A stretch of 64,000 nt of DNA, from contig NZ_CP025118.1 of the NCBI RefSeq assembly GCF_002831665.1, positions 124,001-188,000 of the forward strand, given 5' to 3'. The first letter of the stretch is position 1; every line of letters starts with the position of its first letter. The translations under genes were made by a program, and so were the position numbers. The notes under the pieces are model-generated. The model did not search any database and was not told the DNA's origin. It was given only the letters and a program-made list of their open reading frames with translations. This document shows, piece after piece, positions 25,344 to 60,780 of the stretch. This DNA is from Lacinutrix sp. Bg11-31 (lineage in GTDB: Bacteria; Bacteroidota; Bacteroidia; Flavobacteriales; Flavobacteriaceae).

Positions 25344-25464
25344 AACGGTTTTGTGTATGGTTAGTTGCGTGGTTAGGCAACTAATTTAGCAAATAAATCA
25401 CAGATAGAATATTCCGAAGGAATGTTCGTAAGTCGGCAGTGAACCAAGCAATTAATTATACACG
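25344..25464 (-). repeat. attC-like site 1, family I, interrupted
   Basis: Left arm and central stem (ATATTCCGAAGGAATGTTC) present up to TATACACG; the last bases and GTT were displaced to 26683 by an IS110 insertion. Serves the POT-transporter cassette (TACCTACAAC / GTTGTAGGTA). Confidence 0.8.
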
Positions 25465-26680
25465 TCTTAAGTTTGTATTATCCTTAAATTAGATAAATAA
25501 ACAGAAAGCACAAAAGAGAGGATTAAGGTTATTATACACGCAGAGACTTAGATCTCGTCAACATTGAAAATCACCTCTCTTTTCTACACAGATTTCGTAC
25601 AGTTCTATGAGGCTTTAAGACCTCGCTTTTAAGTCGTTGAAACTCGCGTAGATTGTCCTTTCAAAAAACATTTTCTTATGAATAAAGATATAAAATATTT
25701 TGGAATTGACATTAGTTATTTAGTATTTGATGTTACCGATTCTGATGGTAATTACTATCAGTTTAAAAACAATGTGGGAGGCTTTAGGAAGTTTACAAAA
25801 CTATAGAATACTTATAGTCATTGTGTAATGGAAGCTACAGGTTATTATCATTATCAATTAGCATATTATTTGTTAGAGTCTAGTATAAAATTGTCTGTAG
25901 AGAATCCATTATCTGTTAAACGATTTATACAGATGAAGCTATCAAAAATCAAGACAGACAAGAGCGATTCTAAGCTTATTTGTGAGTATGCTCAGAAAGT
26001 AGAATTAAAGCTTTGGCAAGGTAATTCTAAGAATGAAATAGAATGTTTTCAAATTACCCGAGCGCTTTCTATCTATACTAAACAAAGTACAATGATAAAA
26101 AACAAATTGCATGGAGAAACTGTTTTGGGAGCGCCCAGTAAAGCAGTCGTAAGATCCTTAAAACGCAGTTTAAAATACCTTGGTAAAGAAAAAAAAAACT
26201 TAGAGGATAAGTTGTTGGCCTTAGTGAACCTAACTCATCAAGATCTATTAACTCGTTTAAAAACGATTCCAAGTATTGGTCCAAAAACATCTATTATGCT
26301 AATAGTTTTAACAGGAGGTTTTGATCGCTTTAAAAGCGCAAGTGAATTATGTAGTTATGCAGGATTAACACCAGTAATTAAACAAAGTGGAAGTAGTGTA
26401 AAAGGGCGACCAAGAATTAGTAAAATGGGTAATCAAAAGCTTCGTAATTTATTATTTATGTGCAGCCTTAATGCATGTAAATGTAATAAAGCTTGTCGAG
26501 AACTTTATGAGCGAATAGTTGCAAAAGGAAAGAGTAAAAAATTAGCATTAATTGCAATTTGTAATAAGCTATTAAAACAAGCTTTTGCTATTGCTAAATC
26601 AGGATTAATATATGATGAAAGCTATAGAAGTGTTTTAGTGAAAAATTAATGGGATTTTACTTGTTTTTCACCACAGTACT
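25465..26680 (+). mobile_element. IS110-family element (type 1), degenerate
   Basis: About 1.2 kb between the two halves of site 1. It has a 213-nt upstream region with a long hairpin (AAAAGAGAGG / CCTCTCTTTT, 25513-25580), the usual place of the IS110 bridge RNA, then a transposase gene with a premature stop. No terminal inverted repeats, as is usual for IS110. Ends are placed by comparison with intact sites and may be off by a few bases. Confidence 0.75.
25678..26649 (+). pseudogene. IS110-family transposase with in-frame amber stop
   Basis: ATG at 25678 opens MNKDIKYFGIDIS, the start of the DEDD RuvC-like domain. TAG at 25804 (codon 43) stops it, and the same frame continues as MEATGYYHYQLAYYLL...TDKSDSKLICEYAQ and the C-terminal Transposase_20 domain (IPSIGPKTSIMLIVLTGGFDRFKSASELCSYAGLTP ... 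GRPRISKMGNQKLRNLLFMC). The rest is intact, so the stop looks recent. Confidence 0.85.
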
Positions 26681-27889
26681 TTGTTGTAGGTAGTTTTTTT
26701 TATTCCAAAACACAAGTGCGATAAGTCCAATACTAATAACAGTCATAGTAATTATTCCAAATTTTAATCCTAGAACTGGATTTTCATAAAATCTTTCATT
26801 AAACAAACCAAAAATTAAAGCGATTAACCTTGTTGGTAAAAATGCCAAACTAATTAGAATAGCTAGATATTTTGGGTTAGAATATTTTGTTAATATTGAA
26901 TGGATAATTGGCGAAATATAAATTTCCGAAATACCAAGAAATAATAATGATAACAAATATAAAATTGCATGTTGTTCATTAGGAACTTCTGGAATTAGAA
27001 ATAAAATACCGAATGAGATTGCTCCAAAAATAAAGCCAATCATTAATTTAAAAAATTGTGAGCTATAGAAATATGTCCATACTATAATTGCGATTACACT
27101 AATTGGTATGAAAAAGTAAAAGTTAATAGATTGCCATAAATGTTTAGGGATACCAAGAGTAGAAATTTCACTGAATTCTAATTGTAAATCAAAAATTCGA
27201 ATATTTGAGATTTTGTAAATGCCCCAAAAAAGCCCTACAACAGTGAAAGCAATTGAAATGTTTAAAATTCTATTGCCTATTGATAATTCATTTTTTAAAG
27301 TTTCTTTTGCAATTTTATCTTTAGATATGAGTATGGGAATTATCGATATTAGCATTAGTATTCCAGATATTATAAATCCAATATTATAACCATATTTTTC
27401 TCCAGAAGACCCAATCAGTGAGGCTCCAAGATAAGAGCCTAAATTTATTGCTAAATAAAATATTGTAAACCCTGAATCTAATAGTTTGGTTTTACTCAAA
27501 TATAATTTCCCGAAATTTGAGATAATATTTGGCGTATAAAGTCCGCTACCTAAAACTACAAGAAACATTCCAATATACAGTCCATAAGTTGAAGCACTAC
27601 AAAGAGTAAATGCTCCACAAGCCTGAATAATTCCACCAAAAATTATTGCTTTTTTATTTCCTATAATTAAATCTCCAAGTAGTGCGCCAATAATTTGTGA
27701 AACCACTAATGAACCTGCAAACCATCCAAAAAGACTCAATGCTTCTGTTCTATCCATTTGTAGAATTATTCCTGTCATATGCAAGAGCAGGAGTATTCTT
27801 AAACCATAGTAAGATGCTCGTTCAAGCATTCTTGATAAACAGTAGTAAAAAGTTTCTTTGGTGTGTTTTTGATTTTGAATTTTTTCCAT
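26657..27889 (-). CDS. POT/PTR2-like MFS transporter (cassette 1)
   Basis: 410 residues, 12 hydrophobic segments. The N-terminus has the ERASYYG motif and then GALLGDLIIGNKKAIIFGG, typical of proton-dependent oligopeptide transporters. Closely related to the cassette protein at 50518-51732; both start MEKIQNQKHTKET. The last residues differ because the reading frame runs out of the cassette into the IS110 end (QQSTVVKNK), whereas the other copy ends inside its own site (YLQHRV). Substrate unknown, perhaps di- or tripeptides. Starts 29 nt from the cassette boundary, leaving little room for a promoter. Confidence 0.8.
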   Translation of the reverse strand: MEKIQNQKHTKETFYYCLSRMLERASYYGLRILLLLHMTGIILQMDRTEALSLFGWFAGSLVVSQIIGALLGDLIIGNKKAIIFGGIIQACGAFTLCSASTYGLYIGMFLVVLGSGLYTPNIISNFGKLYLSKTKLLDSGFTIFYLAINLGSYLGASLIGSSGEKYGYNIGFIISGILMLISIIPILISKDKIAKETLKNELSIGNRILNISIAFTVVGLFWGIYKISNIRIFDLQLEFSEISTLGIPKHLWQSINFYFFIPISVIAIIVWTYFYSSQFFKLMIGFIFGAISFGILFLIPEVPNEQHAILYLLSLLFLGISEIYISPIIHSILTKYSNPKYLAILISLAFLPTRLIALIFGLFNERFYENPVLGLKFGIITMTVISIGLIALVFWNKKNYLQQSTVVKNK

Positions 27890-27918
27890 TCAGTTTATTG
27901 GGTTGGTAAATTACCTAC

Positions 27919-28043
27919 AACGGTTATGTATAAGAATAGTGCGGTTTTGTGTGCGAGGATTTTCCGAAGGAAAATCAGAAGCTAGCAAAACTGCACTAAC
28001 CTTTGATTAAGTACTAAACTAAGCATTATTTTTATACGATGTT
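27919..28043 (-). repeat. attC-like site 2, family II, 125 bp
   Basis: Central stem GATTTTCC / GGAAAATC. Identical to sites 3 and 11, each carried by a copy of the same nuclease-like cassette (GCATACAAC / GTTGTATGC). Confidence 0.85.
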
Positions 28044-28055
28044 GTATGCAGTACT

Positions 28056-28742
28056 TTAAATATTCTCAATTATATTCAAATTACTTTTATTAATATTAAA
28101 TTTAGAAATTTTATTTTCAATAAAGACTAAATTACCGAAAATAGGTTTCCCAATAATTCCTGCTACGTTTTCACAGAATTCAGGATAATTTTTCAGAATT
28201 GAATATTTACTTTCAAAGTCTAAATATTCTTTTAAGTCATTATCTGTTATAAAATCTTTTTGTAAGTTAATTACATCAATACAAATAATTAATTTGTAGT
28301 TATCTATTTTAATTAAATCTCTGTATGTTTCTTCTTTGTTAGTGATTTTTGAGATTTGTGGGATGAAATTATTAATTGAAGTAATAAATGAACTTTGAGT
28401 ATTTCCAAAGTATTCATCTTTTTTAAATGATTCAATTTTATTATTTAATTCTTTTTCAATTGGATTTATTTTCTTTACTTCAAATATGATATTTTGATTT
28501 TCAGATTTTACTAACCAATCTGGGGTTTTTCCATTTATCTTTGGTTCGTAAATTACTTCTGAAAATAATTGATTTAGGACATATCCAAATTCCATTTCAG
28601 AAAATAGAGATAGAATATTAATCTCATTTTTTTCTTTTATTAATTTTCTTGAAAATATTCCGTTATATTTTGTATCCAAAAACTCTAGATTCCTTCTATA
28701 ATCGGATTTGTTTTTTAGGATTTTTTCAGCGGTTTCGTTCAT
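28056..28742 (-). CDS. PD-(D/E)XK-nuclease-like protein, copy 1
   Basis: 228 residues, no signal peptide. Not a named family to me. TPDWLVKSENQNIIFEVKKI fits the PD-(D/E)XK active site: Pro-Asp, a spacer of about 12, then Glu-x-Lys. This fold is found in restriction and repair nucleases, so a DNA-cutting or phage-defence role is possible but inferred from this motif only. The same protein is encoded at 28898-29584 and 36868-37554 without any amino-acid change. The start is 18 nt from the cassette end. Confidence 0.75.
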   Translation of the reverse strand: MNETAEKILKNKSDYRRNLEFLDTKYNGIFSRKLIKEKNEINILSLFSEMEFGYVLNQLFSEVIYEPKINGKTPDWLVKSENQNIIFEVKKINPIEKELNNKIESFKKDEYFGNTQSSFITSINNFIPQISKITNKEETYRDLIKIDNYKLIICIDVINLQKDFITDNDLKEYLDFESKYSILKNYPEFCENVAGIIGKPIFGNLVFIENKISKFNINKSNLNIIENI

Positions 28743-28760
28743 CGTTCCGGTATTGCATAC

Positions 28761-28885
28761 AACGGTTATGTATAAGAATAGTGCGGTTTTGTGTGCGAGG
28801 ATTTTCCGAAGGAAAATCAGAAGCTAGCAAAACTGCACTAACCTTTGATTAAGTACTAAACTAAGCATTATTTTTATACGATGTT
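28761..28885 (-). repeat. attC-like site 3, family II, 125 bp
   Basis: Identical to site 2, from a tandem duplication of the cassette with a period of 842 bp. Serves the copy at 28898. Confidence 0.85.
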
Positions 28886-28897
28886 GTATGCAGTACT

Positions 28898-29584
28898 TTA
28901 AATATTCTCAATTATATTCAAATTACTTTTATTAATATTAAATTTAGAAATTTTATTTTCAATAAAGACTAAATTACCGAAAATAGGTTTCCCAATAATT
29001 CCTGCTACGTTTTCACAGAATTCAGGATAATTTTTCAGAATTGAATATTTACTTTCAAAGTCTAAATATTCTTTTAAGTCATTATCTGTTATAAAATCTT
29101 TTTGTAAGTTAATTACATCAATACAAATAATTAATTTGTAGTTATCTATTTTAATTAAATCTCTGTATGTTTCTTCTTTGTTAGTGATTTTTGAGATTTG
29201 TGGGATGAAATTATTAATTGAAGTAATAAATGAACTTTGAGTATTTCCAAAGTATTCATCTTTTTTAAATGATTCAATTTTATTATTTAATTCTTTTTCA
29301 ATTGGATTTATTTTCTTTACTTCAAATATGATATTTTGATTTTCAGATTTTACTAACCAATCTGGGGTTTTTCCATTTATCTTTGGTTCGTAAATTACTT
29401 CTGAAAATAATTGATTTAGGACATATCCAAATTCCATTTCAGAAAATAGAGATAGAATATTAATCTCATTTTTTTCTTTTATTAATTTTCTTGAAAATAT
29501 TCCGTTATATTTTGTATCCAAAAACTCTAGATTCCTTCTATAATCGGATTTGTTTTTTAGGATTTTTTCAGCGGTTTCGTTCAT
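28898..29584 (-). CDS. PD-(D/E)XK-nuclease-like protein, copy 2
   Basis: Same 228-residue protein as at 28056-28742, in the adjacent tandem cassette. On its 5' side identity with copy 1 ends at the AACG boundary (GTTTATG here against GGTTATG there), showing that the cassette is the unit that was duplicated. Confidence 0.75.
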   Translation of the reverse strand: MNETAEKILKNKSDYRRNLEFLDTKYNGIFSRKLIKEKNEINILSLFSEMEFGYVLNQLFSEVIYEPKINGKTPDWLVKSENQNIIFEVKKINPIEKELNNKIESFKKDEYFGNTQSSFITSINNFIPQISKITNKEETYRDLIKIDNYKLIICIDVINLQKDFITDNDLKEYLDFESKYSILKNYPEFCENVAGIIGKPIFGNLVFIENKISKFNINKSNLNIIENI

Positions 29585-29602
29585 CGTTCCGGTATTGCAT
29601 AC

Positions 29603-29726
29603 AACGTTTATGTATAAGGATAGTTGCGGGTTTGTATGCGAGGATTTTCCGAAGGAAAATCAGACGTAACAAACACGCAACGACCTTTGATTAAGGACTA
29701 AGCCGCAATTATTTTTATACGGTGTT
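29603..29726 (-). repeat. attC-like site 4, family II, 124 bp
   Basis: Stem GATTTTCC / GGAAAATC. Cassette ends TATGCCCAAC / GTTGGGCATA. Confidence 0.85.
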
Positions 29727-30786: not shown

Positions 30787-30974
30787 AACGTTTATTATAA
30801 GAAACGTAGGGCAATAAATAAGCACTATCGTTTCGGTTTATTACTTAGCTAAATATAAATATTTTGCTTTTATCTTTTCTACTATAAACGCCAAATTTTA
30901 TATTTAGCGGACTTTATAAATATTCACTGAACTTTCGGTTTAGCGCAAATGCCCTATGTTTTTTATACACTGTT
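30787..30974 (-). repeat. attC-like site 5, family III (long), 188 bp
   Basis: Long variant with extra AT-rich arms; outer pairing TAGGGC / GCCCTA. Cassette ends ACGCACAAC / GTTGTGCGT. Confidence 0.75.
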
Positions 30975-31897: not shown

Positions 31898-32020
31898 AAC
31901 GTTTATGTATATGGTTTGTTGCGTGTTTAAGCAACTAAGTTAATAAATAAATATTGGATAGAAAATCCGCAAGGATTTTCGTAAGTAGGCTAGAACTAGC
32001 AATAAATTATATACGGTGTT
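31898..32020 (-). repeat. attC-like site 6, family I variant, 123 bp
   Basis: Central stem GAAAATCC / GGATTTTC, a compensated change relative to other sites. Cassette ends TGCGTAGAAC / GTTCTACGCA: the base after GTT is C, not the usual G or A, on both sides. Confidence 0.85.
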
Positions 32021-32502: not shown

Positions 32503-32626
32503 AACGTTTATGTATAAGAATAGTTGCGGGTTTGTATGCGAGGATTTTCCGAAGGAAAATCAGACGTTACAAACACGCAACGACCTTTGATTAAGCACTA
32601 AACCGCAATTATTTTTATACGGTGTT
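32503..32626 (-). repeat. attC-like site 7, family II, 124 bp
   Basis: Stem GATTTTCC / GGAAAATC. Cassette ends TGTGGCTAAC / GTTAGCCACA. Confidence 0.85.
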
Positions 32627-33231: not shown

Positions 33232-33358
33232 AACGTTGTTGTGTATGATTAGTTGCGTGTTTAAGCAACTAATTTAATAAACAAATACGAACCCGAGAAA
33301 ATTCCGAAGGAATTTTCCAAATAAGCACTTGCCAAAGCAATTAATTATACACGGTGTT
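33232..33358 (-). repeat. attC-like site 8, family I, 127 bp
   Basis: Stem GAAAATTCC / GGAATTTTC. Cassette ends GTTTGCTAAC / GTTAGCAAAC. Confidence 0.85.
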
Positions 33359-33880: not shown

Positions 33881-34004
33881 AACGTTTATGTATAAGAATA
33901 GTTGCGGGTTTGTATGCGAGGATTTTCCGCAGGAAAATCAGACGTTACAAACACGCAACGACCTTTTATTAAGCACTAAACCGCAATTATTTTTATACGG
34001 TGTT
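33881..34004 (-). repeat. attC-like site 9, family II, 124 bp
   Basis: Stem GATTTTCC / GGAAAATC with loop GC. Cassette ends GCTTACAAC / GTTGTAAGC. Confidence 0.85.
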
Positions 34005-34633: not shown

Positions 34634-34642
34634 AACGTGTTT
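34634..34642 (-). repeat. attC-like site 10, left stub
   Basis: AACGTGTTT: the start of a family I site cut by the IS110 copy; continues at 35869. Confidence 0.7.
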
Positions 34643-34836
34643 CTTTAGTTTGTAATAAATATCTTTAGATAGAAAAAGAGGAGAACTATAACGTGTTTTA
34701 GAATAACGCTCCCTTACACGTACGAGTCCTCTCTTTCTATACTGTTGCCAAGAACCATTTGGAATACCAGGAGTCAAAATCTCCCGATAAAGGAAGTAGT
34801 TAACGCAACATATTTATTCACTCTAATTGTAAAAAT
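34643..34836 (+). ncRNA. Candidate IS110 bridge RNA region, copy A
   Basis: The 194-nt region before the transposase holds a hairpin AGAAAAAGAGGA / TCCTCTCTTTCT (34680-34740). Its loop contains TAACGTGTT, the same as the left flank of copy B's insertion, and TACACGT, complementary to the ACGTGTA at the right flank. That is the layout expected for the two target guides of a bridge RNA. Boundaries are unknown. Confidence 0.45.
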
Positions 34837-35829
34837 ATGAAAAATTACAAAGAAGTCGTTGGAATCGATGTTTCAAAAAAAACAATAGATGCCTTTTGTT
34901 ATCAAGCAGAAGTACATAAGGAGTTTATTAACGATGTAGTAGGTTATAAAAGTCTTTTAAAATGGGTTTCAAAGTATACCAATGAAATTGACGTTTTTTA
35001 TTGTTTTGAGAATACAGGATATTACTCATTAAAATTAGCGCTTTATTTCGCTAGTCAATCTATAGTTTATGTAGAAGAAAGTCCTTTAAAAATAAAACGT
35101 TCATCGGGAATTGTAAAAGAAAAGACAGACAAGCTTGATGCGGCTTTAATAGCACGTTATGCTTGGCTTTATAGAGAAGAGTTGGAACCAAGTACAGTAA
35201 AAAGTATGTCTCATTTAGAGCTTGGAAGACTGTTAGCTTTACGGGATCAATTAGTTAGAAATAATGCAGGTCTTAAAGGTACTTTAAAAGAAATGAAAAT
35301 ACTTTTATCTAGTCCAACCACAGATTCTGGTTGCATAAGCTTAAAACGCAGTATAGACTATTTATCTAAGCAAGTAAAATCAGTAGAGGATAGGATAAAA
35401 GAGATTATTTCTCAAGATGAATCGATGCAAAAAAATTATGAATTATTATCGAGTTTAAAAGGAGTAGGTTTAGTAGTTGCTAGTCAATTAATTTACCATA
35501 CAGGAAACTTTACACGCTTTGCAAGTTGGCGTGCTTTTTCTAGTTATTGTGGAACAGCGCCATTCGAGCATCGTTCTGGAACCAGTATCTATAAGCGAAA
35601 ACAATGTCATTATTTAGGAGACAGAAAAATGAAAAGCTTATTAAGTATGGCAAGCGTTTCTGCAATACAACATGATAGTGAATTAAGACAATATTATAAG
35701 CGAAAAGTAGCAGAAGGAAAAGATAAAATGTTAGCCATAAATAATGTTAGAAACAAACTAATTGCAAGAGCTTTTGCTGTTGTGAAAAGAGGAACACCTT
35801 ATGTTGTTTTACAACAGCATGCAGCTTAA
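34837..35829 (+). CDS. IS110-family transposase (type 2), copy A
   Basis: 330 residues. The RuvC-like DEDD acids are Asp11 (GIDVSKKT), Glu58 (CFENTGYYS), Asp98 and Asp101 (KTDKLDAALIARYA). The C-terminal Transposase_20 domain follows (LSSLKGVGLVVASQLIYHTGNF ... YCGTAPFEHRSGTSI), including the serine that is nucleophilic in this family. Intact and identical to the copy at 48442-49434, so it was recently active. Confidence 0.93.
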   Translation: MKNYKEVVGIDVSKKTIDAFCYQAEVHKEFINDVVGYKSLLKWVSKYTNEIDVFYCFENTGYYSLKLALYFASQSIVYVEESPLKIKRSSGIVKEKTDKLDAALIARYAWLYREELEPSTVKSMSHLELGRLLALRDQLVRNNAGLKGTLKEMKILLSSPTTDSGCISLKRSIDYLSKQVKSVEDRIKEIISQDESMQKNYELLSSLKGVGLVVASQLIYHTGNFTRFASWRAFSSYCGTAPFEHRSGTSIYKRKQCHYLGDRKMKSLLSMASVSAIQHDSELRQYYKRKVAEGKDKMLAINNVRNKLIARAFAVVKRGTPYVVLQQHAA

Positions 35830-35868
35830 AAAAAAACAGAATATTTATTAGGAAATGATCTTGGAATA

Positions 35869-35986
35869 CGTGTATGGTTAGTTGCGTGGTTAAGCAACTA
35901 ATTTAGCAAAAATGGAACGAACCAGAGGAAATTCCGCAGGAATTTCCACGTAGGATTGAAACAAGCAATTAATTATACACGTTGTT
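35869..35986 (-). repeat. attC-like site 10, main part, family I
   Basis: Resumes at GTGTATGGTTAG after the IS110 copy. Stem GGAAATTCC / GGAATTTCC. Cassette ends TAAAGACAAC / GTTGTCTTTA. Confidence 0.85.
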
Positions 35987-36730: not shown

Positions 36731-36855
36731 AACGGTTATGTATAAGAATAGTGCGGTTTTGTGTGCGAGGATTTTCCGAAGGAAAATCAGAAGCTAGCAA
36801 AACTGCACTAACCTTTGATTAAGTACTAAACTAAGCATTATTTTTATACGATGTT
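36731..36855 (-). repeat. attC-like site 11, family II, 125 bp
   Basis: Identical to sites 2 and 3; it travelled with the third nuclease-like cassette (GCATACAAC / GTTGTATGC). Confidence 0.85.
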
Positions 36856-37572: not shown

Positions 37573-37698
37573 AACGTGATTGTGTATGGTTAGTTGCGTG
37601 ATTTAAGGAACTAAGTTAGCAAATAAATCACAGATAGAATATTCCGCAGGAATGTTCGTAAGTAGGCTTAAAACTAGCAATTAATTATACGCGGTGTT
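37573..37698 (-). repeat. attC-like site 12, family I, 126 bp
   Basis: Stem ATATTCC / GGAATGT. Cassette ends TACACAAC / GTTGTGTA. Confidence 0.85.
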
Positions 37699-38188: not shown

Positions 38189-38312
38189 AACGTTTATGTA
38201 TAAGAATAGTGCGGTTTTGTGTGCGAGGATTTTCCGCAGGAAAATCAGACGTAACAAAAATGCACGGACTCTTGATTAAGCACTAAACTAAGCATTATTT
38301 TTATACGGTGTT
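38189..38312 (-). repeat. attC-like site 13, family II, 124 bp
   Basis: Stem GATTTTCC / GGAAAATC. Cassette ends GTGTGGTAAC / GTTACCACAC; the TAA of the gene is part of this end. Confidence 0.85.
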
Positions 38313-39127: not shown

Positions 39128-39251
39128 AACGTTGTTGTGTATGGTTAGTTGCGTTGTTAAGCGAGTAAGTTAACAAACAAATCACAGATAGAAAATTCCA
39201 GCGGAATTTTCGTAAGTCGGCAGTGACCAGCAATTAATTATACACGGTGTT
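39128..39251 (-). repeat. attC-like site 14, family I, 124 bp
   Basis: Stem AAAATTCC / GGAATTTT. Cassette ends CGTTTCACAAC / GTTGTAAAACA: the pairing is imperfect, so this site may have been swapped or drifted. Confidence 0.8.
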
Positions 39252-40090: not shown

Positions 40091-40215
40091 AACGTTGTTG
40101 TGTATGGTTAGTTGCGTGGTTAAGCAACTAATTTAGCAAATAAATCACAGATAGAATATTCCGCAGGAATGTTCGTAAGTCGGCAGTGACCAAGCAATTA
40201 ATTATACACGGTGTT
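40091..40215 (-). repeat. attC-like site 15, family I, 125 bp
   Basis: Stem ATATTCC / GGAATGT. Identical to site 21; both are carried by the same secreted-protein cassette (TATAGACAAC / GTTGTCTATA). Confidence 0.85.
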
Positions 40216-40879: not shown

Positions 40880-41004
40880 AACGTTGTTGTGTATGGTTAG
40901 TTGCGTGTTTCAGCAACTAAATTAGTAAACTAAAACGAACCAGAGGAAATTCCGCAGGAATTTCCACGTAAGCTAGAACAAAGCAATTAATTATACACGT
41001 TGTT
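40880..41004 (-). repeat. attC-like site 16, family I, 125 bp
   Basis: Stem GGAAATTCC / GGAATTTCC. Cassette ends GTTGCCAAC / GTTGGCAAC. Confidence 0.85.
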
Positions 41005-41862: not shown

Positions 41863-41987
41863 AACGTTTATGTATATGAAATGTTGCGTGTTTGTGTGCG
41901 AGGATTTTCCGAAGGAAAATCAGAAGCTAACAAACGAGCAACAAACATTGGTTTAGGTAAAACCAGCAATTTTTTATATACTTTGTT
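41863..41987 (-). repeat. attC-like site 17, family II, 125 bp
   Basis: Stem GATTTTCC / GGAAAATC. Cassette ends AGTTGCCAAC / GTTGGCAACT. Confidence 0.85.
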
Positions 41988-42587: not shown

Positions 42588-42711
42588 AACGTTTATGTAT
42601 AAGAATAGTTGCGGTTTTGTGTGCGAGGATTTTCCGCAGGAAAATCAGACGTAACAAAAGCGCAACGACCTTTGTTTAAGCCTAAAATAGCAATTATTTT
42701 TATACTGTGTT
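42588..42711 (-). repeat. attC-like site 18, family II, 124 bp
   Basis: Stem GATTTTCC / GGAAAATC. Cassette ends GTTTTACAAC / GTTGTAAAAC. Confidence 0.85.
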
Positions 42712-44029: not shown

Positions 44030-44153
44030 AACGGTCTTGTATAAGAATAGTTGCGTGTTTGCGTGCGAGGAATTTCCGTAGGAAATTCAGATGTAGCAAA
44101 TACGCAACTACCTTTGTTTTAGCACTAAACAGTAATTATTTTTATACGTTGTT
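44030..44153 (-). repeat. attC-like site 20, family II variant, 124 bp
   Basis: Stem GGAATTTCC / GGAAATTC with loop GTA. Cassette ends TATTGCCAAC / GTTGGCAATA. Confidence 0.85.
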
Positions 44154-45119: not shown

Positions 45120-45244
45120 AACGTTGTTGTGTATGGTTAGTTGCGTGGTTAAGCAACTAATTTAGCAAATAAATCACAGATAGAATATTCCGCAGGAATG
45201 TTCGTAAGTCGGCAGTGACCAAGCAATTAATTATACACGGTGTT
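45120..45244 (-). repeat. attC-like site 21, family I, 125 bp
   Basis: Same sequence as site 15, moved with the duplicated lipocalin-like cassette (ATAGACAAC / GTTGTCTAT). Confidence 0.85.
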
Positions 45245-45908: not shown

Positions 45909-46034
45909 AACGTTGTTGTATATGGTTTGTTGCGTGTTTCAAGCAACCAATTTAGTAAATAATTACCGACCAAGAAAGTCCGCGAGGACTTTCGCAAGTA
46001 GGCAAGAAGCGAGCAATAAATTATATACGGTGTT
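45909..46034 (-). repeat. attC-like site 22, family I variant, 126 bp
   Basis: Stem AAAGTCC / GGACTTT, a compensated change of the usual TTCC / GGAA. Cassette ends TGTTTACAAC / GTTGTAAACA. Confidence 0.85.
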
Positions 46035-47316: not shown

Positions 47317-47502
47317 AACGTCTAGGCTATGGTTAGTACGGGAATTAAAATTACTGAATTTCCGATTAAGCACTTAGCCAAATCTTTTTATTTTGTTTTA
47401 TCTTTTTTATTTTAAAGCCAAATCAAAAGATTTGGCGGACTTCATAAATATACCCAAACTTTGGGTTAAGTACTAAAACCCGTATTAATTATAGCCATTG
47501 TT
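47317..47502 (-). repeat. attC-like site 23, family III (long), 186 bp
   Basis: Long form with the hairpin GCCAAATC / GATTTGGC near the middle. Closely related to site 32. Cassette ends GCAGGTAAC / GTTACCTGC. Confidence 0.8.
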
Positions 47503-48238: not shown

Positions 48239-48247
48239 AACGTGTTC
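48239..48247 (-). repeat. attC-like site 24, left stub
   Basis: AACGTGTTC, cut by IS110 copy B at the same position as in site 10; the site resumes at 49474. Confidence 0.7.
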
Positions 48248-49473
48248 CTTTAGTTTGTAATAAATATCTTTAGATAGAAAAAGAGGAGAACTATAACGTG
48301 TTTTAGAATAACGCTCCCTTACACGTACGAGTCCTCTCTTTCTATACTGTTGCCAAGAACCATTTGGAATACCAGGAGTCAAAATCTCCCGATAAAGGAA
48401 GTAGTTAACGCAACATATTTATTCACTCTAATTGTAAAAATATGAAAAATTACAAAGAAGTCGTTGGAATCGATGTTTCAAAAAAAACAATAGATGCCTT
48501 TTGTTATCAAGCAGAAGTACATAAGGAGTTTATTAACGATGTAGTAGGTTATAAAAGTCTTTTAAAATGGGTTTCAAAGTATACCAATGAAATTGACGTT
48601 TTTTATTGTTTTGAGAATACAGGATATTACTCATTAAAATTAGCGCTTTATTTCGCTAGTCAATCTATAGTTTATGTAGAAGAAAGTCCTTTAAAAATAA
48701 AACGTTCATCGGGAATTGTAAAAGAAAAGACAGACAAGCTTGATGCGGCTTTAATAGCACGTTATGCTTGGCTTTATAGAGAAGAGTTGGAACCAAGTAC
48801 AGTAAAAAGTATGTCTCATTTAGAGCTTGGAAGACTGTTAGCTTTACGGGATCAATTAGTTAGAAATAATGCAGGTCTTAAAGGTACTTTAAAAGAAATG
48901 AAAATACTTTTATCTAGTCCAACCACAGATTCTGGTTGCATAAGCTTAAAACGCAGTATAGACTATTTATCTAAGCAAGTAAAATCAGTAGAGGATAGGA
49001 TAAAAGAGATTATTTCTCAAGATGAATCGATGCAAAAAAATTATGAATTATTATCGAGTTTAAAAGGAGTAGGTTTAGTAGTTGCTAGTCAATTAATTTA
49101 CCATACAGGAAACTTTACACGCTTTGCAAGTTGGCGTGCTTTTTCTAGTTATTGTGGAACAGCGCCATTCGAGCATCGTTCTGGAACCAGTATCTATAAG
49201 CGAAAACAATGTCATTATTTAGGAGACAGAAAAATGAAAAGCTTATTAAGTATGGCAAGCGTTTCTGCAATACAACATGATAGTGAATTAAGACAATATT
49301 ATAAGCGAAAAGTAGCAGAAGGAAAAGATAAAATGTTAGCCATAAATAATGTTAGAAACAAACTAATTGCAAGAGCTTTTGCTGTTGTGAAAAGAGGAAC
49401 ACCTTATGTTGTTTTACAACAGCATGCAGCTTAAAAAAAAACAGAATATTTATTAGGAAATGATCTTGGAATA
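48248..49473 (+). mobile_element. IS110-family element (type 2), copy B
   Basis: Same element as 34643-35868, in the same orientation and at the same point of a family I site. Flanks differ on both sides, so the two insertions are independent. The upstream region again carries the bridge-RNA-like hairpin (48248-48441). Confidence 0.85.
48442..49434 (+). CDS. IS110-family transposase (type 2), copy B
   Basis: 330 residues, no difference from copy A at 34837-35829; all four DEDD acids and the C-terminal domain are present. Read against the direction of the cassette genes. Confidence 0.93.
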   Translation: MKNYKEVVGIDVSKKTIDAFCYQAEVHKEFINDVVGYKSLLKWVSKYTNEIDVFYCFENTGYYSLKLALYFASQSIVYVEESPLKIKRSSGIVKEKTDKLDAALIARYAWLYREELEPSTVKSMSHLELGRLLALRDQLVRNNAGLKGTLKEMKILLSSPTTDSGCISLKRSIDYLSKQVKSVEDRIKEIISQDESMQKNYELLSSLKGVGLVVASQLIYHTGNFTRFASWRAFSSYCGTAPFEHRSGTSIYKRKQCHYLGDRKMKSLLSMASVSAIQHDSELRQYYKRKVAEGKDKMLAINNVRNKLIARAFAVVKRGTPYVVLQQHAA

Positions 49474-49590
49474 CGTGTATGGTTAGTTGCGTTGGCTAGC
49501 AACTAAATTAGTAAAAGAAAACGAACCAGAGGAAAATCCGTAGGATTTTCCGAGTACACACATAACTAGCAATTGATTATACACGTTGTT
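49474..49590 (-). repeat. attC-like site 24, main part, family I
   Basis: From GTGTATGGTTAG on; stem GGAAAATCC / GGATTTTCC, compensated. Cassette ends ATGCCTAAC / GTTAGGCAT, a full match to the R''/R' consensus (RYYYAAC / GTTRRRY). Confidence 0.85.
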
Positions 49591-50404: not shown

Positions 50405-50531
50405 AACGTTGTTGTGTATGGTTAGTTGCGTGTTTAAGCAACTAATTTAGTAAACAAAAACGAACGCGAGAAAATTCCGAAGGAATTTTCCAAATAGGCA
50501 ACGACAAAAGCAATTAATTATACACGGTGTT
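50405..50531 (-). repeat. attC-like site 25, family I, 127 bp
   Basis: Stem GAAAATTCC / GGAATTTTC. Cassette ends TACCTACAAC / GTTGTAGGTA, the same as for site 1. Confidence 0.85.
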
Positions 50532-51761: not shown

Positions 51762-51888
51762 AACGTTTTTGTGTATGGTTAGTTGCGTGGTTAAGCAACT
51801 AATTTAGTAAACAAAAACGAACGCGAGAAAATTCCGAAGGAATTTTCCAAATAGGCACTTGCCAAAGCAATTAATTATACACGGTGTT
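51762..51888 (-). repeat. attC-like site 26, family I, 127 bp
   Basis: Stem GAAAATTCC / GGAATTTTC. Identical to site 28. Cassette ends GTGCTACAAC / GTTGTAGCAC. Confidence 0.85.
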
Positions 51889-52730: not shown

Positions 52731-52918
52731 AACGGTCACGTATATGAAACGTAGCGTCTAAAAAGACACTAATCTTTCGGATTATACACGAGCCGAATTT
52801 TTAATTTTTATATTTAATTTTTCTGTTCTAAATATACAAAATTAAAAATTTGGAGTACTTTGTAAATACACAAGAACCTCTCGAAAAGCCTGTAACAGCT
52901 ATGTTTTATATACATTGT
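52731..52918 (-). repeat. attC-like site 27, family III (long), 188 bp
   Basis: Long form, the closest relative of the solitary site at 713-899. Cassette ends TGTGTACAAC / GTTGTACACA, enclosing the TonB/PepSY pair. Confidence 0.8.
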
Positions 52919-53149
52919 TGTACACAGTATTTTCCCCAAGCCTTTGATTTTAAGTACTTAATATTTCGTTTATGCAATTACTTTTAGTTTCAAATTTGTC
53001 CAATTTCAGATGGCAGATGCTAAAGTAAATAGACAACCAACTTACTCAAAATTTTTCTTCTCAAATGTTTCTTCTGCAATGTAATGGAACACTCTTTTTT
53101 GCTTGGATGAAGCGTTGGCGTAAAAGTGTGTGGAATGGTAATTTATAGA

Positions 53150-54292
53150 CTAAACTTTAATGCTATCTAAAGATTTTTTCTTTTTATAATTTCGTCCGTA
53201 CCACAATAGAATTCCAGTTACTGGCAAACTTGCAACGAGTAAACTAACTAAAAATGCAATAATTTTGCCCACAATTCCTCCTATTGCTCCAATATGTATG
53301 TCATAATTCATTCGTAGTATTTTGTCAGCAACTTTGGTGTTTTCATACTTTCCATAAATGGTTTCGGATTGTATTTCGTTCAATGTGTTTTGGTCAAAAA
53401 ACAAAAAGTCTGCATCGTAGTGTAAACCTTTACTATTGCCTACTTCGACATAAATTGCATCTGAATTGGAATGTGGATAATGTATTTCAAAACTTTCCGC
53501 ATTTGGATTTTCTTTTTCGAGTTTAGTTAAAAGGAAATCTATTGGTAAAACATCAGTTATATTTACAAGGTTTTCACTCTGATTTTTAGGTATTAAAAAA
53601 GTGGGATTTTTTTCTCCACCTGCCGATTTATAAACGACATATTGAAGCCAATCATAGGACATCATGGAACCCGTAAATGCTATGATTAACGCAAGTGAAC
53701 AAACATAAAACCCTATAACTGTATGCAAATCGAAATTTTTACGTTTCCAACGTGTTGTTTTTTTCCAATCAAATTTTAAACGCTGTTTTAAGTTTTTACG
53801 CTTTTTAGGTAACCATAAAAAGAAACCAGAAATAATGATTAAAAGAAAAATTAAAATCGACACTCCAACAACTTGTTCGCCAATATCTTTTGGTAACCAA
53901 AGTCGCATATGACCTTTTAAGATAAAAGCAAAAAAACCTGAAAGGTGGTCGTCAATTTGTATAATTTCTCCTGAATACGGATTTAGAAAAACACTTTGGT
54001 AAAACTCTGGTTCTGCATCATAAAAAATAACTTCAATAGCATCGTCATTTTTTCCAAAAATAGTTCCGTGAACAGAGTTGTTTGGAAATATTTTTTTAGT
54101 AAGTTCTTTTGCTTCTGTTGGTGTTAAATTAGATTCGTTTTGTGGTGCTACTTTTTTATAATCATCATAAAGGCTTTCAATTTCTTCTTTAAAAGCCCAA
54201 CAACAACCTGTAATTGCAACAATGAAAACAACAAGTCCAGTCGCAAGTCCTAAAATTTTATGTAGTTGAAAAAGTATTTTTTTAAATGACAT
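53150..54292 (-). CDS. PepSY-associated transmembrane protein
   Basis: 380 residues. Starts FKKILFQLHKILGLATGLVVFIVAITGCCWAFKEEIE, the typical first helix; about four transmembrane helices in all (around 15-35, 140-160, 190-212, 345-370) and a periplasmic PepSY region between. Such proteins are encoded next to siderophore receptors and are thought to reduce or release iron in the periplasm. Lies 58 nt after the TonB receptor gene and is surely co-transcribed. About 230 bp without a gene separate its stop from the recombination site. Confidence 0.9.
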   Translation of the reverse strand: MSFKKILFQLHKILGLATGLVVFIVAITGCCWAFKEEIESLYDDYKKVAPQNESNLTPTEAKELTKKIFPNNSVHGTIFGKNDDAIEVIFYDAEPEFYQSVFLNPYSGEIIQIDDHLSGFFAFILKGHMRLWLPKDIGEQVVGVSILIFLLIIISGFFLWLPKKRKNLKQRLKFDWKKTTRWKRKNFDLHTVIGFYVCSLALIIAFTGSMMSYDWLQYVVYKSAGGEKNPTFLIPKNQSENLVNITDVLPIDFLLTKLEKENPNAESFEIHYPHSNSDAIYVEVGNSKGLHYDADFLFFDQNTLNEIQSETIYGKYENTKVADKILRMNYDIHIGAIGGIVGKIIAFLVSLLVASLPVTGILLWYGRNYKKKKSLDSIKV

Positions 54293-54350
54293 TGTTTTAA
54301 ATTTAAAAAGAGCAACTATTAAAATAAGTTGCCCTTTTGACTTTGACTAA

Positions 54351-56777
54351 TTAAAATTTATATGAAATATTTGCCAATAATGCTCTTGGTGTTTGTGGAT
54401 TTATAGTTGACCAACCTTTGTAATATTCTTTATTAAAAGCATTGTTTAATTTTAACCCAATTCTATATTTATCGGCTTGATAAAATACAGATGCGTTTGC
54501 AACTATATAACTTGGTAATGTAAAATTACCTGTTGTCGTGTAGTTCTTTACAAAACGCTCACTTGCACCATTAAAACCAAAGCCAGCACCAAAACCATTT
54601 AATTTTCCTTCTTGAAATTCGTAATTTGCCCAAAGATTATAAAGTGTTTTTGGACCAGCTTCTAAAGGTCTTTTATTTAAAATTAATGGGTCGTCCGTTT
54701 TTGTAGTTATACTTTCGTTATTACTATATCCAGCTCTTATATTTAACCCTTTAAGTGGATTGGCATTGATTTCTATTTCTACACCTTTGCTCTCAATTTC
54801 TCCACCTTGAATTCTATTAAAAGGTGAATTTGGGTCAATGATGACTCTATCTTTTACTTTAATATCGTAATAGCTAATAGTTGCGTTTAAACGGTTATTA
54901 AAGAAATTTGTTTTCAATCCAAACTCTAATTGATTGGCTTGCTCTGGCTTAAAAGTTTCTAACCTTTGTGGACCATCTTCTGGATTTCCTACTAATTGAG
55001 GTGCAACATTATTAAAGCCATTTTGATAGTTAGCAAAAACAGATAATTTGTCTTTTATTGGTTGATATAGTAAGCCAAATTTTGGCGAAAAAGCGGTTTG
55101 TACAAAATCGTCTTCTGTATTAGTCAAATCTCCTTTATTGTCAAAACGGTCTAATCGTAAACCTATCATTGCAGATAGATTTTCTGTAAAGTTCACAACA
55201 TCTGAAGCATAGATGCTATAAATATTATAAGAGGATTTATTGTTTCCAACAGCTTGCGATTCTAAAACACCATCAACTCCAGCAGTTGAAAGTGGAAATA
55301 AATCAGTTTCTACAACATCTGGCGTAAAAGGATTGTCTCCATTTGAGCCTCCTTCTGGTGTTATATTTCCATAAAATGCGTAACCACTATTATTACTTGT
55401 TTCGGTTGCATTGAAATAGTCTAAACCAATAACGATTCTATTTCGAAGCGATGCAATTTTAGAATCTCCTATAAAGTTTTGTTGAATATCGGTTGTTTGT
55501 GTATTTGCATTTTGTTTGCTGATAAAACGAGAAAATGTATCATCGCCTAAAATACCAAATTCAAATAGATACGAGTAATAGCCTTTCGTAGAAGTTGAGC
55601 TTTTGGAAAGTAAGGTTTGTGATTGCCAAGTGTCCGACAATTTATAGTCCATTTCAATTCTATAATTCTGTGTTGGATTTAGCAATGTTAAATCGTTGCT
55701 TGTAAACGAAAGCTTGTTGTTGTAACCCAATTCCTCAAGATTAGCTGATTCTGTTGGTGCACTTCTGTTCAAGAATAAAAAGGTTGGATTTGTTTGTTCT
55801 GCTTGTGTGATTTCTCCGTAAAATGAAAATGAAAGTCTGTTGTTGACTTTATACGATAAAGATGGTGCTACAAAAAATGATTTTCTAAAACCTGCATCTT
55901 GAAAACTTTGTTCTGTAGTGTAAGCTGTATTTAATCTGAAATACAAATTATCTTCTTTACTTAATGCAGTATTGAAATCTCCCACGATTTGATTAAGTCC
56001 ATAAGTTCCAGAAGTAAAAGATAATTCTCCACCAGTTCCAACATAAGGTTTTTTGGTAACAACATTTATAAGTCCACCATAAGAACTTACCGAATTTCCA
56101 AATAAAGTTGCAGAAGGACCTTTTAGAACTTCAATACGTTCAATATTTGCAGGATTAATTGTTCCGTTTGTTAATCCAGGCAGACCATTTACTAATTGTG
56201 GTTGAACAGAAAATCCACGAAGAGCATAATATCCAGCTCCATCTCCACCACGACCAGTTGAAGCCCATAATTGTTCTACTCCTGTTGCATTTTTTAGAGC
56301 ATCATCAAAATTTGTAACTACTTGTGATTGTAAAAGTTCATTGGTAATTGTACTATACACTTGTGTGTTTTCAATATCTTTTAAAGGAAGTTTAGAAACA
56401 TATGCTGTTTTCTTTCTCGAAAATTTATTACGTCTTTCTCCTTCAACAACAACTTCGCTCAAGATTTCATTTCCTTCGTAAAGTGTAATTGTTTCTAATT
56501 TTGTGTTTTGATTATTTGAAACTGAAATGGAAATTTCTCTTGTTTTAAATCCCAAGTAAGAAATTGAAAGCGTGTAGTTTCCGTTTTCTAAATTAGTTAT
56601 TTCAAACTCTCCATTTTCGTTGGATTGCGTTCCTTTGGTGGTATTTTTTAAAGAAACATTTACTCCGAAAAGATCAGTTTTATTATTGTCTGTAACAGTT
56701 CCAGAAACTGTTCCGTTTTGTGAAAATGCTAAATTAGTTAGCAAAAATAAGGTTAAGGTTAGTAATAAATTTTTCAT
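54351..56777 (-). CDS. TonB-dependent siderophore receptor
   Basis: 808 residues. Signal peptide (MKNLLLTLTLFLLTNLAFSQ), a carboxypeptidase-regulatory-like domain at about 21-110 (GTVSGTVTDNNKTDLFGVNVSL), plug domain at about 130-245 (INPANIERIEVLKGPSATLFGNS), then a beta-barrel ending in the terminal aromatic (NISYKF). The long plug with GRGGDGAGYYALRGFSVQPQLVNGLPG is typical of ferric-siderophore receptors. Together with the PepSY protein it forms an iron-uptake unit inside one giant cassette. Confidence 0.93.
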   Translation of the reverse strand: MKNLLLTLTLFLLTNLAFSQNGTVSGTVTDNNKTDLFGVNVSLKNTTKGTQSNENGEFEITNLENGNYTLSISYLGFKTREISISVSNNQNTKLETITLYEGNEILSEVVVEGERRNKFSRKKTAYVSKLPLKDIENTQVYSTITNELLQSQVVTNFDDALKNATGVEQLWASTGRGGDGAGYYALRGFSVQPQLVNGLPGLTNGTINPANIERIEVLKGPSATLFGNSVSSYGGLINVVTKKPYVGTGGELSFTSGTYGLNQIVGDFNTALSKEDNLYFRLNTAYTTEQSFQDAGFRKSFFVAPSLSYKVNNRLSFSFYGEITQAEQTNPTFLFLNRSAPTESANLEELGYNNKLSFTSNDLTLLNPTQNYRIEMDYKLSDTWQSQTLLSKSSTSTKGYYSYLFEFGILGDDTFSRFISKQNANTQTTDIQQNFIGDSKIASLRNRIVIGLDYFNATETSNNSGYAFYGNITPEGGSNGDNPFTPDVVETDLFPLSTAGVDGVLESQAVGNNKSSYNIYSIYASDVVNFTENLSAMIGLRLDRFDNKGDLTNTEDDFVQTAFSPKFGLLYQPIKDKLSVFANYQNGFNNVAPQLVGNPEDGPQRLETFKPEQANQLEFGLKTNFFNNRLNATISYYDIKVKDRVIIDPNSPFNRIQGGEIESKGVEIEINANPLKGLNIRAGYSNNESITTKTDDPLILNKRPLEAGPKTLYNLWANYEFQEGKLNGFGAGFGFNGASERFVKNYTTTGNFTLPSYIVANASVFYQADKYRIGLKLNNAFNKEYYKGWSTINPQTPRALLANISYKF

Positions 56778-56816
56778 TGTTTTTATTTAGACTTAATATA
56801 AATAATTAATTTTCGA

Positions 56817-56848
56817 CAAAAATATATTTTGCATTTGACATATGCAAA
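56817..56848 (-). promoter_or_regulatory. Promoter and operator of the TonB receptor cassette
   Basis: Minus strand TTTG (56845-56848), 20-nt spacer, TATTTTTG (56817-56824), a good Bacteroidota promoter about 40 nt before the ATG. The spacer overlaps an inverted repeat TTTGCAT N7 ATGCAAA (56828-56848), a plausible repressor site, perhaps iron-responsive. Confidence 0.65.
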
Positions 56849-56877
56849 TTATTTATAATAAATCTAAATAAGGATTT

Positions 56878-57045
56878 TTAAGAGGTTGATTTTCTGTTGT
56901 TAGTACTGTGTTTTTTTTTCTTTCGAAGACGAAAAGTAGCAAGTGCAAAGAAATTATCTCGCAGAGTAATTTTTTGCTCTTGCGGGAATTTAGTACTAAA
57001 TTTTCTGAAAACTTTTTTAGCGAGGAACATTCCAAATAAGCCCAT
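56878..57045 (-). CDS. Possible 55-residue basic protein upstream of the TonB gene
   Basis: ATG 57045 opens MGLFGMFLAKKVFRKFSTKF..., rich in Lys and Arg, ending at TAA 56878. Unrecognised. An overlapping 60-codon frame (57035-56853) is equally long but less protein-like. It is the first frame of the giant cassette, 48 nt from the boundary. Confidence 0.4.
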   Translation of the reverse strand: MGLFGMFLAKKVFRKFSTKFPQEQKITLRDNFFALATFRLRKKKKHSTNNRKSTS

Positions 57046-57093
57046 TTTTCATAGGTTTTTGATGTTCAGAATGTGATTTGTTATATTGTGTAC

Positions 57094-57220
57094 AACGTTT
57101 TTGTGTATGGTTAGTTGCGTGGTTAAGCAACTAATTTAGTAAACAAAAACGAACGCGAGAAAATTCCGAAGGAATTTTCCAAATAGGCACTTGCCAAAGC
57201 AATTAATTATACACGGTGTT
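57094..57220 (-). repeat. attC-like site 28, family I, 127 bp
   Basis: Same sequence as site 26, carried by the second copy of the 182/83-residue cassette (GTGCTACAAC / GTTGTAGCAC). Confidence 0.85.
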
Positions 57221-58062: not shown

Positions 58063-58187
58063 AACGTTTATGTATAAGAATAGTTGCGGTTTTGTGTGCG
58101 AGGATTTTCCGCAGGAAAATCAGACGTAACAAAACTGCAACGACCTTTGTTTAAGCACTAATTTAGCAATTATTTTTATACGGTGTT
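58063..58187 (-). repeat. attC-like site 29, family II, 125 bp
   Basis: Stem GATTTTCC / GGAAAATC. Cassette ends GTTGCCAAC / GTTGGCAAC. Confidence 0.85.
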
Positions 58188-58567: not shown

Positions 58568-58692
58568 AACGTTTATGTATATGGAAAGTTGCGGGTTTGC
58601 GTGCGAGGAATTTCCGAAGGAAATTCAGACGTAGCAAACGTGCAACGACCTTTGATTTAGCACAAAACCAGCAATTTTTTATATACGGTGTT
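58568..58692 (-). repeat. attC-like site 30, family II variant, 125 bp
   Basis: Stem GAATTTCC / GGAAATTC. Open in one minus-strand frame through its whole length. Cassette ends TTTGCCAAC / GTTGGCAAA. Confidence 0.85.
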
Positions 58693-59316: not shown

Positions 59317-59440
59317 AACGTTTATGTATAAGAATAGTGCGGTTTTGTGTGCGAGGATTTTCCGCAGGAAAATCAGACGTAACAAAAGTGCACGGACTCT
59401 TGATTAAGCACTAAACTACGCATTATTTTTATACGGTGTT
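59317..59440 (-). repeat. attC-like site 31, family II, 124 bp
   Basis: Stem GATTTTCC / GGAAAATC. Cassette ends AGTTGCCAAC / GTTGGCAACT. Confidence 0.85.
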
Positions 59441-59956: not shown

Positions 59957-59987
59957 TTTTTTCAGAGTATGATTGGTAATAGTTGCC

Positions 59988-60172
59988 AACGGCTCGGCTA
60001 TGGTTAGTACGGGAATTAAAAGTAGTGAACTTTCGATTAAGCACTTAGCCAAAACTTTTTATTTTGTTTTATCTTTTTTTTATAAAGCCAAATCAAAAGA
60101 TTTGGCGGACTTGGTTTAAAGCTCTAAACTTTGGGTTAAGCACCAAAACCCGTATTAATTATAGCCATTGTT
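59988..60172 (-). repeat. attC-like site 32, family III (long), 185 bp
   Basis: Contains the hairpin GCCAAATC / GATTTGGC and outer pairing GGCTATGG / CCATTG-like. It serves the first cassette after the integrase; ends GTGCACAAC / GTTGTGCAC. Confidence 0.8.
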
Positions 60173-60184
60173 GTGCACTGGTTT

Positions 60185-60706
60185 TTATCCGATTTTAGTT
60201 TTAATAAATTCAGTTACTTTTTCAAATTCTTCCTTTCCGATTTCAGATTCCGCCAGAACGTACGATAAACTGGGTCCAATATTTATATCAAGAAATAAAT
60301 TTGATTCAATTACTCGGTAGCTTTTAAATGAACTCCATATCATTTTCGTCTCATATCTATAATCTTTGTAGCAAAAACTTTCCTCATTGAATTCCCAAAT
60401 ACTATTCTCTTGAGATTTTTTTTGATTGTCAATTTCTGTCTCAATCAAATCGAAATATTGTTTTTTATTTTTTCGATAATGTATATAATTATCTATGAAA
60501 TTCGTGATGGAATGAATTCCAAAACCGATCAATAAATAGCCAAAATAGTTTTCACTAGTAATCATATAATAACCAATTAGAACCATTGGAATTCCCCAAA
60601 TTAATCTCATTCTGTTATTTTCTTTATTCCTTTTCCAAGTCAGATTAAAATGAAGTAACATTTGGGTTTGGTAAAGGTTTTTATCGAAGGGTATCTCAAA
60701 TATCAT
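60185..60706 (-). CDS. YcxB-like membrane protein (first cassette)
   Basis: 173 residues. Two transmembrane helices (LIWGIPMVLIGYYMI; YFGYLLIGFGIHSITNFI) are followed by a YcxB-like soluble part (WEFNEESFCYKDYRYETKMIWSSFKSYRVIESNLFLDI ... EEFEKVTEFIKTKIG). Function unknown. In an integron the first cassette is usually the latest to be inserted. Confidence 0.7.
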   Translation of the reverse strand: MIFEIPFDKNLYQTQMLLHFNLTWKRNKENNRMRLIWGIPMVLIGYYMITSENYFGYLLIGFGIHSITNFIDNYIHYRKNKKQYFDLIETEIDNQKKSQENSIWEFNEESFCYKDYRYETKMIWSSFKSYRVIESNLFLDINIGPSLSYVLAESEIGKEEFEKVTEFIKTKIG

Positions 60707-60734
60707 TTATTTCTTTTGTTTTTGACTTGTGCAC

Positions 60735-60780
60735 AACAATTGGATAAACGTACCTTAGTATGTTTATTCCATTTTTAGTA
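60735..60780 (-). other. attI-like recombination site
   Basis: The first cassette begins at AAC 60735-60737 (GTTGTGCAC on the minus strand). Five bases away lies the imperfect inverted repeat GGATAAACGTAC / GTATGTTTATTCC (60742-60770), which fits paired recombinase-binding sites. Unlike the attC-like sites there is no long palindrome. It directly adjoins the integrase stop codon. Confidence 0.6.

Follow-up and report, generated by a model that had tools for sequence, protein, structure and literature searches.

We analysed a 64,000-nt window of the chromosome of Lacinutrix sp. Bg11-31 (Flavobacteriaceae), positions 124001–188000 of the source genome (G000:C1; 3.665 Mb, one contig), in which a row of gene cassettes and hairpin-like sites lies beside a gene for a tyrosine recombinase (Table 1; positions are those of the window unless a contig is named). 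The stretch 25344–60172 holds 32 sites, of which 29 are intact and three, at 25344, 34634 and 48239, are split by IS110 elements. Every intact site has AAC at its start and GTT at its end; 25 are 123–127 bp long and four are 185–189 bp. Covariance models R2 and R3 combined return 32 plus-strand sites within the array, one minus-strand shadow row being left out of the count. The 32 cassette bodies (26683–60737, minus strand) range from 385 to 4179 bp. In the array the minus strand carries 37 principal open reading frames (ORFs; a hand-picked selection), and the bigger plus-strand genes are three IS110 transposases. The cassette genes point away from the recombinase, and a site sits downstream of the 3′ end of each gene. 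An earlier note on this DNA had described 32 AAC...GTT palindromes beside a tyrosine recombinase, and both are confirmed. As a background control, 60 pieces of 20 kb were sampled from three genomes; six contain any such site, two of them within arrays of the source genome and one within a three-site cluster in genome G294.

The two ends of each cassette are related to each other. In every cassette, the nine nucleotides that follow the G of GTT are the reverse complement of the nine that lead up to the C of the next AAC. Over the 32 cassettes of the window, with right ends located by the complementarity itself (25 of 32 had been found beforehand by an independent motif pattern), the mean agreement is 8.72 of 9 positions, compared with 4.96 when the ends are paired otherwise and 5.35 when they are compared across a site. 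None of 10,000 permutations scored as high, which places the array beyond chance. In all loci together, 76% of the 323 cassettes between consecutive detected sites score at least 8/9, compared with 3% of shuffled pairs, and at position 10 a G faces a T in 280 of them. Because complementary ends would adjoin one site only in a closed circle or between identical neighbours, the cassette ends look like the junction of an excised circle.

Three identical cassettes (28041, 28883 and 36853) have their left-hand site in common and differ in their right-hand sites, so that the unit is a gene together with the site downstream of its 3′ end; as judged from sequence, it is this unit that would move. Four cassette pairs, 91–94% identical over nearly their full length, link different genera. 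No window cassette has a near full-length match of at least 75% in another genome among the cassettes compared, a set that excluded 20 later-fetched stretches and the subsequent loci. Identical gene order in all relatives would, according to the earlier note, have been a sign of immobility; array contents vary between genomes.

From its start, each site runs through AAC, a stretch of about 6 nt, the first arm of a 16-bp stem, a variable centre, the second stem arm, 3 nt and GTT. It is predicted to form a single-stranded DNA hairpin with two boxes and an unpaired central spacer, in which 6- and 3-nt spacers flank the outer stem and AAC and GTT lie outside. Read on the plus strand, the outer 16-bp stems of 25 distinct window sites contain 333 Watson–Crick pairs, 66 G·T pairs, no A·C pair and one other; for 374 distinct sites from all loci the counts are 4690, 906, 31 and 357. 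Because G·T far outnumbers A·C on the plus strand, this strand, opposite the genes, folds better by predicted DNA energies, as found for 29 of 29 intact window sites and for 345 of 374 sites in all loci (2 equal). We infer that the G·T wobbles set which strand folds. No extrahelical bases are seen in the outer stem, where ungapped pairing, Watson–Crick or G·T, covers 399 of 400 cells of the 25 distinct sites. The available text of two papers on integrons describes recombination of the bottom strand and bulged bases that touch the enzyme (PMC11641012, PMC11023631). The boundary rule RYYYAAC/GTTRRRY invoked in the earlier note holds here for AAC and GTT, but by eye GTTRRRY fits just 2 of the 32 right ends. 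At the gathering threshold no Rfam family matches the sites; the single match in the window is a Bacteroidete tryptophan leader RNA (RF01692) at 19033–19152 on the minus strand.

The sites are linked to the recombinase well beyond this genome. At the protein level, 162 of 299 family genomes match the recombinase at E 1e-60; among the matches listed, 50 genomes have a homolog of at least 53% identity. The loci fetched comprised 40 flanks from family genomes, 46 named loci, several of which are fragmentary, and a further 20 stretches, with some overlap between named and unnamed loci. Sites are present in 66 of the 86 loci with a long recombinase. They number 456, of which 455 are on the strand opposite the gene and to its 3′ side; the sole exception is a single cassette at the left edge of the window. 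Of the 20 site-free loci, 18 have less than 1.3 kb of sequence on the 3′ side. In canonical integrons the array is usually divergent from the integrase gene. The arrays of the 66 long-recombinase loci are instead 3′ and co-directional; those of short recombinases (278–306 aa), present at four of six loci, show the classical divergent layout, with 13 of 13 sites 5′ of the gene on the same strand. None of five other tyrosine recombinases of the source genome has a site within 1.5 kb.

A candidate attI lies beside the recombinase gene, past its stop codon. It typically consists of a palindrome about 20 nt past the stop codon, about 6 nt, and then the GTT and the first cassette; the window's own palindrome was read by eye and is not the longest one found by script. 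Arms of at least 7 nt occur past the stop codon in 39 of 85 loci, compared with 5.8% of shuffles, and in 36 of the 47 loci with arms of at least 6 nt the palindrome ends 3–7 nt ahead of a GTT. Its sequence varies between lineages, the same 47 loci holding 38 different sequences, and by eye a second recombinase clade has another motif at this position.

The recombinase contains Phage_integrase and SAM_4 domains and passes the model NF040815 ("site-specific tyrosine recombinase/integron integrase") with 225 bits against a cut-off of 220. It fails the integron integrase model TIGR02249 (208.8 bits against 265), the match being broken into two stretches. Between these matched blocks it is about 43 residues shorter than IntI4, whose residues 179–246 (68) face residues 279–303 (25), so that the additional domain specific to IntI is lacking. 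It aligns as a single stretch with archaeal XerA-type enzymes, and its core and catalytic domains do the same with XerA/XerC-like recombinases (NF040815; PDB entries 4a8e and 5hxy); unlike these, it has an extra N-terminal domain, linkage to an array and attI, and a zinc-finger partner gene. In the predicted structure (mean predicted local distance difference test 79.6, predicted template modelling score 0.56), the best Foldseek match is IntI4, followed by XerA. A tree of 43 proteins, which contained no IntI sequences, sets the array recombinases apart from five other tyrosine recombinases of the source genome with modest support (93/73). The nearest named homologs are from Flavobacteriaceae such as Flagellimonas, Maribacter, Arenibacter and Zobellia. 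The integron reading of the earlier note therefore holds in part: a cassette array linked to a recombinase is strongly supported, but by its defining insert the enzyme is not an IntI.

Divergent from the recombinase gene is a gene for a zinc-finger-like protein, whose presence beside most close recombinase homologs is newly seen here. A relative lies divergently within 600 bp at 68 of 74 loci with a recombinase of at least 53% identity, two of the 68 being only 31% identical, and none was found at L145, L056, L066, L074, L072 and L075. Among loci with more distant long recombinases it occurs at one of 12. Four cysteines are invariant across the 19 aligned members. The protein resembles YacG below the cut-off and has no match to a solved fold at E 0.001.

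A search of Bacteroidota genomes, as proposed in the earlier note, indicates that the array is not merely local. With at most 11 candidates scored per genome, the R2 model finds sites (E 1e-4) in 234 of 299 Flavobacteriaceae genomes and in 192 of 236 genera. In a sample of the phylum they were found in 38 of 345 genomes, 20 of them from other families. When 18 of these other-family carriers and two genomes of the same genus were searched, 18 of the 20 had a recombinase match at 1e-30, a weak level at which many of the hits may simply be Xer proteins of the ordinary kind; the search for weaker homologs covered few genomes. Of the 81 sites of the source genome, which fall into 30 separate loci, 32 belong to the array, five to a second array and 44 to 28 other loci. 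The second array (G000:C1:2539248–2547372, at 2.54 Mb) lies beside a 39%-identical recombinase and has a different attI motif.

The 28 further loci are newly seen; some are complete single cassettes, several of which are seated at a short repeated palindrome. Of the sites outside the array, 16 were examined, three of which belong to the second array. Five, namely four single cassettes and one with another site after it, have a complementary far end within 1.5 kb, two have none, and nine were unread, the script requiring exact AAC...GTT ends. Among the targets is a repeated palindrome about 50 bp long. Seven of 15 copies examined in the source genome, two further partial copies being excluded, have a complementary cassette end (7–9 nt). 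In six of the seven this end falls on the same base and in the other it is shifted by 3 nt; one of the 15 copies looks empty. At two palindrome places, sister species carry other cassettes or none. A search for a clean empty allele by joined flanks gave no base-exact empty site; in G638 and G630 the flank continues with no detected site or palindrome. Repeats scattered singly without a link to the recombinase were what the earlier note had set against its own reading. Singles do occur, but we dropped them as a refutation, since some of those examined are complete cassettes, and the arrays are tightly linked. The insertion of integron cassettes at attG (Loot et al. 2024) would be a parallel, with single complete cassettes outside the array; the targets here differ in including the repeated short palindrome and attI-like places. 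The single cassette that crosses the left edge of the window (1–901) has a class III site (713–901, minus strand) downstream of a gene (55–714) that by eye is serine-hydrolase-like, and a palindrome copy lies beyond it at G000:123553. The dispersed palindrome is also clustered about 1 kb apart in L260 (G635:C9) and L259 (G632:C32), as if it were a short fourth site class within arrays.

Orientation relative to replication was assessed from GC skew (20 sampled pieces, a G-rich leading strand being assumed), which places the origin at about 2.85 Mb and the terminus at about 1.02 Mb. Because dnaA, at 1.62 Mb, is far from the skew minimum, it was not used for the origin. In 26 of the 30 loci of the source genome (p 6e-5), the strand that folds better lies on the lagging-strand template; with R2 sites only the count is 20 of 23, the class III sites bringing it to 26 of 30. 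The left-edge cassette of the window is one of the four exceptions. With R2 sites, 11 of 12 loci agree in G294, the exception being its largest cluster (1.77–1.79 Mb), and eight of 11 in G125, which is not significant. This differs from sedentary chromosomal integrons of Vibrio, which preferentially keep the well-folding strand on the leading-strand template according to the available text of PMC11023631.

Taken together, the locus is very probably a chromosomal integron-like system in which cassettes and hairpin sites would be run by a Xer-like tyrosine recombinase. On the best reading this is no canonical integron but a widespread system that resembles one. In each site it is the plus (bottom) strand that would fold as single-stranded DNA, the G·T wobbles making it the good folder. 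The recombinase would excise cassettes as circles and insert them at the predicted attI just past its own stop codon, cutting at G/TT on the coding strand (AA/C on the folded strand). Because bottom-strand sites would be joined to attI, all cassettes would enter in one direction. The divergent zinc-finger protein may be an accessory or regulatory factor, and cassettes may also be planted singly elsewhere, at the dispersed short palindrome and at attI-like places. We lean, by a little, towards a broader view, namely that this is a second integron lineage throughout Bacteroidota, in which a Xer-type recombinase without the IntI domain would run full capture, storage and shuffling on single-stranded hairpins, with strand identity given by G·T pairs, a zinc-finger aid, a palindromic attI, seeding via a dispersed palindrome, and a mostly recombination-prone orientation that is the reverse of that in Vibrio superintegrons.

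Several observations weigh against this interpretation: (i) Cassette movement and the activity of the system are inferred from sequence, and what ties the recombinase to the sites is linkage. (ii) The additional domain of IntI is called necessary for integron recombination in the available part of PMC9668308, and the present enzyme lacks it. (iii) As many as 73 of the 323 cassettes score 6/9 or lower, perhaps owing to a missed site between two cassettes. (iv) Sites occur in 234 of the 299 family genomes but the recombinase match at E 1e-60 in 162. (v) No palindrome with arms of at least 7 nt is present at the attI position in 46 of 85 loci, and that of the window is imperfect. (vi) The sites are related to one another and were detected by models built on those of the window, so that the G·T counts do not represent independent events. 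(vii) In the second recombinase of the source genome, a stop codon stands at residue 9 of the aligned frame, so that this recombinase is perhaps damaged, or perhaps begins further on.

The likeliest alternative is a true integron with a divergent IntI, which would simply add one more member to the known family. In its favour are the arrays, the attC-like hairpins, the attI-like site, IntI4 as the best fold match, and a TIGR02249 match of 208.8 bits. This score nevertheless falls short of 265 in a match broken in two, and 25 residues stand where IntI4 has 68. Just 2 of the 32 right ends obey GTTRRRY, bulged bases are absent from the outer stem and the layout is inverted; that none of the 299 family genomes passes the TIGR02249 cut-off adds only weakly to this, since no control genome passed either. 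We therefore consider a divergent IntI unlikely.

Dispersed repeats of the repetitive extragenic palindrome or miniature inverted-repeat transposable element type, spread by another element with the recombinase as a bystander, would account for the 30 separate site loci of the source genome and for the IS110 elements that target sites. Such repeats would hardly keep strict polarity to a recombinase in 66 loci, nor show complementarity between the ends of whole cassettes, and some examined single sites are complete cassettes; we regard this explanation as highly improbable. The sites might also be RNA elements, such as terminators or antisense RNAs, folded from plus-strand RNA, which the G·T bias would favour equally. 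We give almost no credence to this, as a whole gene separates the complementary ends, which meet at one site only if the cassette is circular or stands next to an identical one, the 30 scanned cassette proteins share few families, and Rfam gave no match to the sites. Both terminators and repeats moved by another element were set aside since they leave the end complementarity unexplained.

The integron-like reading can be compared with the sedentary chromosomal integrons of Vibrio. Both have a row of cassettes, a hairpin site downstream of each gene (here mostly about 125 bp), a presumed G/TT crossover, a tyrosine recombinase, an attI (here predicted) and a bottom strand that folds well. In contrast to Vibrio, the recombinase here lacks the IntI insert, the array is 3′ of its gene in the same direction, cassette ends are complementary over typically 12 of 13 nt, and the outer stem has G·T wobbles and no bulged base. 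IntegronFinder detects integrases by the IntI-specific domain, as stated in the available part of PMC9668308, and an older survey selected on that domain (PMC2426708, in part). A recombinase without it would explain why surveys requiring the domain passed the system over. The text available from PMC9024848 names few integrons for Bacteroidetes, and that from a review counts Bacteroidota among integron-bearing phyla (PMC8618304). No such system was found among the listed titles and abstract openings of open-licence literature, which does not prove its absence. If the interpretation is right, 78% of the sampled family genomes (234/299) carry sites of a system that the IntI-domain rule excludes. 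It would separate what integrons need from the particulars of IntI, make the essentiality of the additional domain and of bulged bases testable, and open a large pool of mostly unknown mobile genes.

Of 30 cassette proteins taken from the 37 ORFs for a Pfam scan, eight exceed a cut-off; the matches are PLDc_N, HTH_3 + 2TM, DUF2947, DUF2806, SLFN_AlbA_2, PepSY_TM, TonB-dependent receptor and POT/MFS transporter. PADLOC, run on 10 of the 37, gave one ORF with helix-turn-helix matches and another that is marginal (E 0.002).

Table 1 Sites, genes and other elements of the array region
Feature	Position	Strand	Remarks
Site 1, class II	25344..25469	+	IS110-split near GTT end
Site 2, class I	27919..28043	+	
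Site 3, class I	28761..28885	+	
Site 4, class I	29603..29726	+	
Site 5, class III	30787..30974	+	
Site 6, class II	31898..32020	+	
Site 7, class I	32503..32626	+	
Site 8, class II	33232..33358	+	
Site 9, class I	33881..34004	+	
Site 10, class II	34634..35986	+	interrupted by IS110 element
Site 11, class I	36731..36855	+	
Site 12, class II	37573..37698	+	
Site 13, class I	38189..38312	+	
Site 14, class II	39128..39251	+	
Site 15, class II	40091..40215	+	
Site 16, class II	40880..41004	+	
Site 17, class I	41863..41987	+	
Site 18, class I	42588..42711	+	
Site 19, class I	43239..43362	+	
Site 20, class I	44030..44153	+	
Site 21, class II	45120..45244	+	
Site 22, class II	45909..46034	+	
Site 23, class III	47317..47502	+	
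Site 24, class II	48239..49590	+	interrupted by IS110 element
Site 25, class II	50405..50531	+	
Site 26, class II	51762..51888	+	
Site 27, class III	52731..52919	+	
Site 28, class II	57094..57220	+	
Site 29, class I	58063..58187	+	
Site 30, class I	58568..58692	+	
Site 31, class I	59317..59440	+	
Site 32, class III	59988..60172	+	
IS110-family transposase	25828..26649	+	element within short spacer of site 1 (25344–26690)
IS110-family transposase	34837..35829	+	element within long spacer of site 10
IS110-family transposase	48442..49434	+	copy of the 34837..35829 one, identical position in site 24
Two of three identical cassettes	28041..29605	-	third is 36853–37575
Largest cassette, 4.2 kb	52917..57096	-	PepSY_TM protein and TonB-dependent siderophore-type receptor
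Predicted attI	60737..60766	-	imperfect palindrome 60745–60766, 7 nt, then AATTG/TT crossover at first cassette
Tyrosine recombinase, 376 aa	60781..61911	-	N-terminal domain of about 100 aa, SAM-like domain, catalytic domain
Zinc-finger-like partner gene, 123 aa	61978..62349	+	divergent from recombinase, four invariant Cys

The three IS110-family elements occupy unpaired spacers of the sites, one type the long spacer (twice) and the other the short spacer. The IS1111-attC insertion sequences, as described in the available part of PMC11187229, are likewise IS110/IS1111-type elements near one end of cassette recombination sites; the elements and sites here differ from them, with two insertion positions, one per spacer. 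Beyond the array recombinase are a BfmA-type mobilization protein (63100–63552) and another tyrosine recombinase (G000:188064–188552), and perhaps a mobilizable element adjoins the array.

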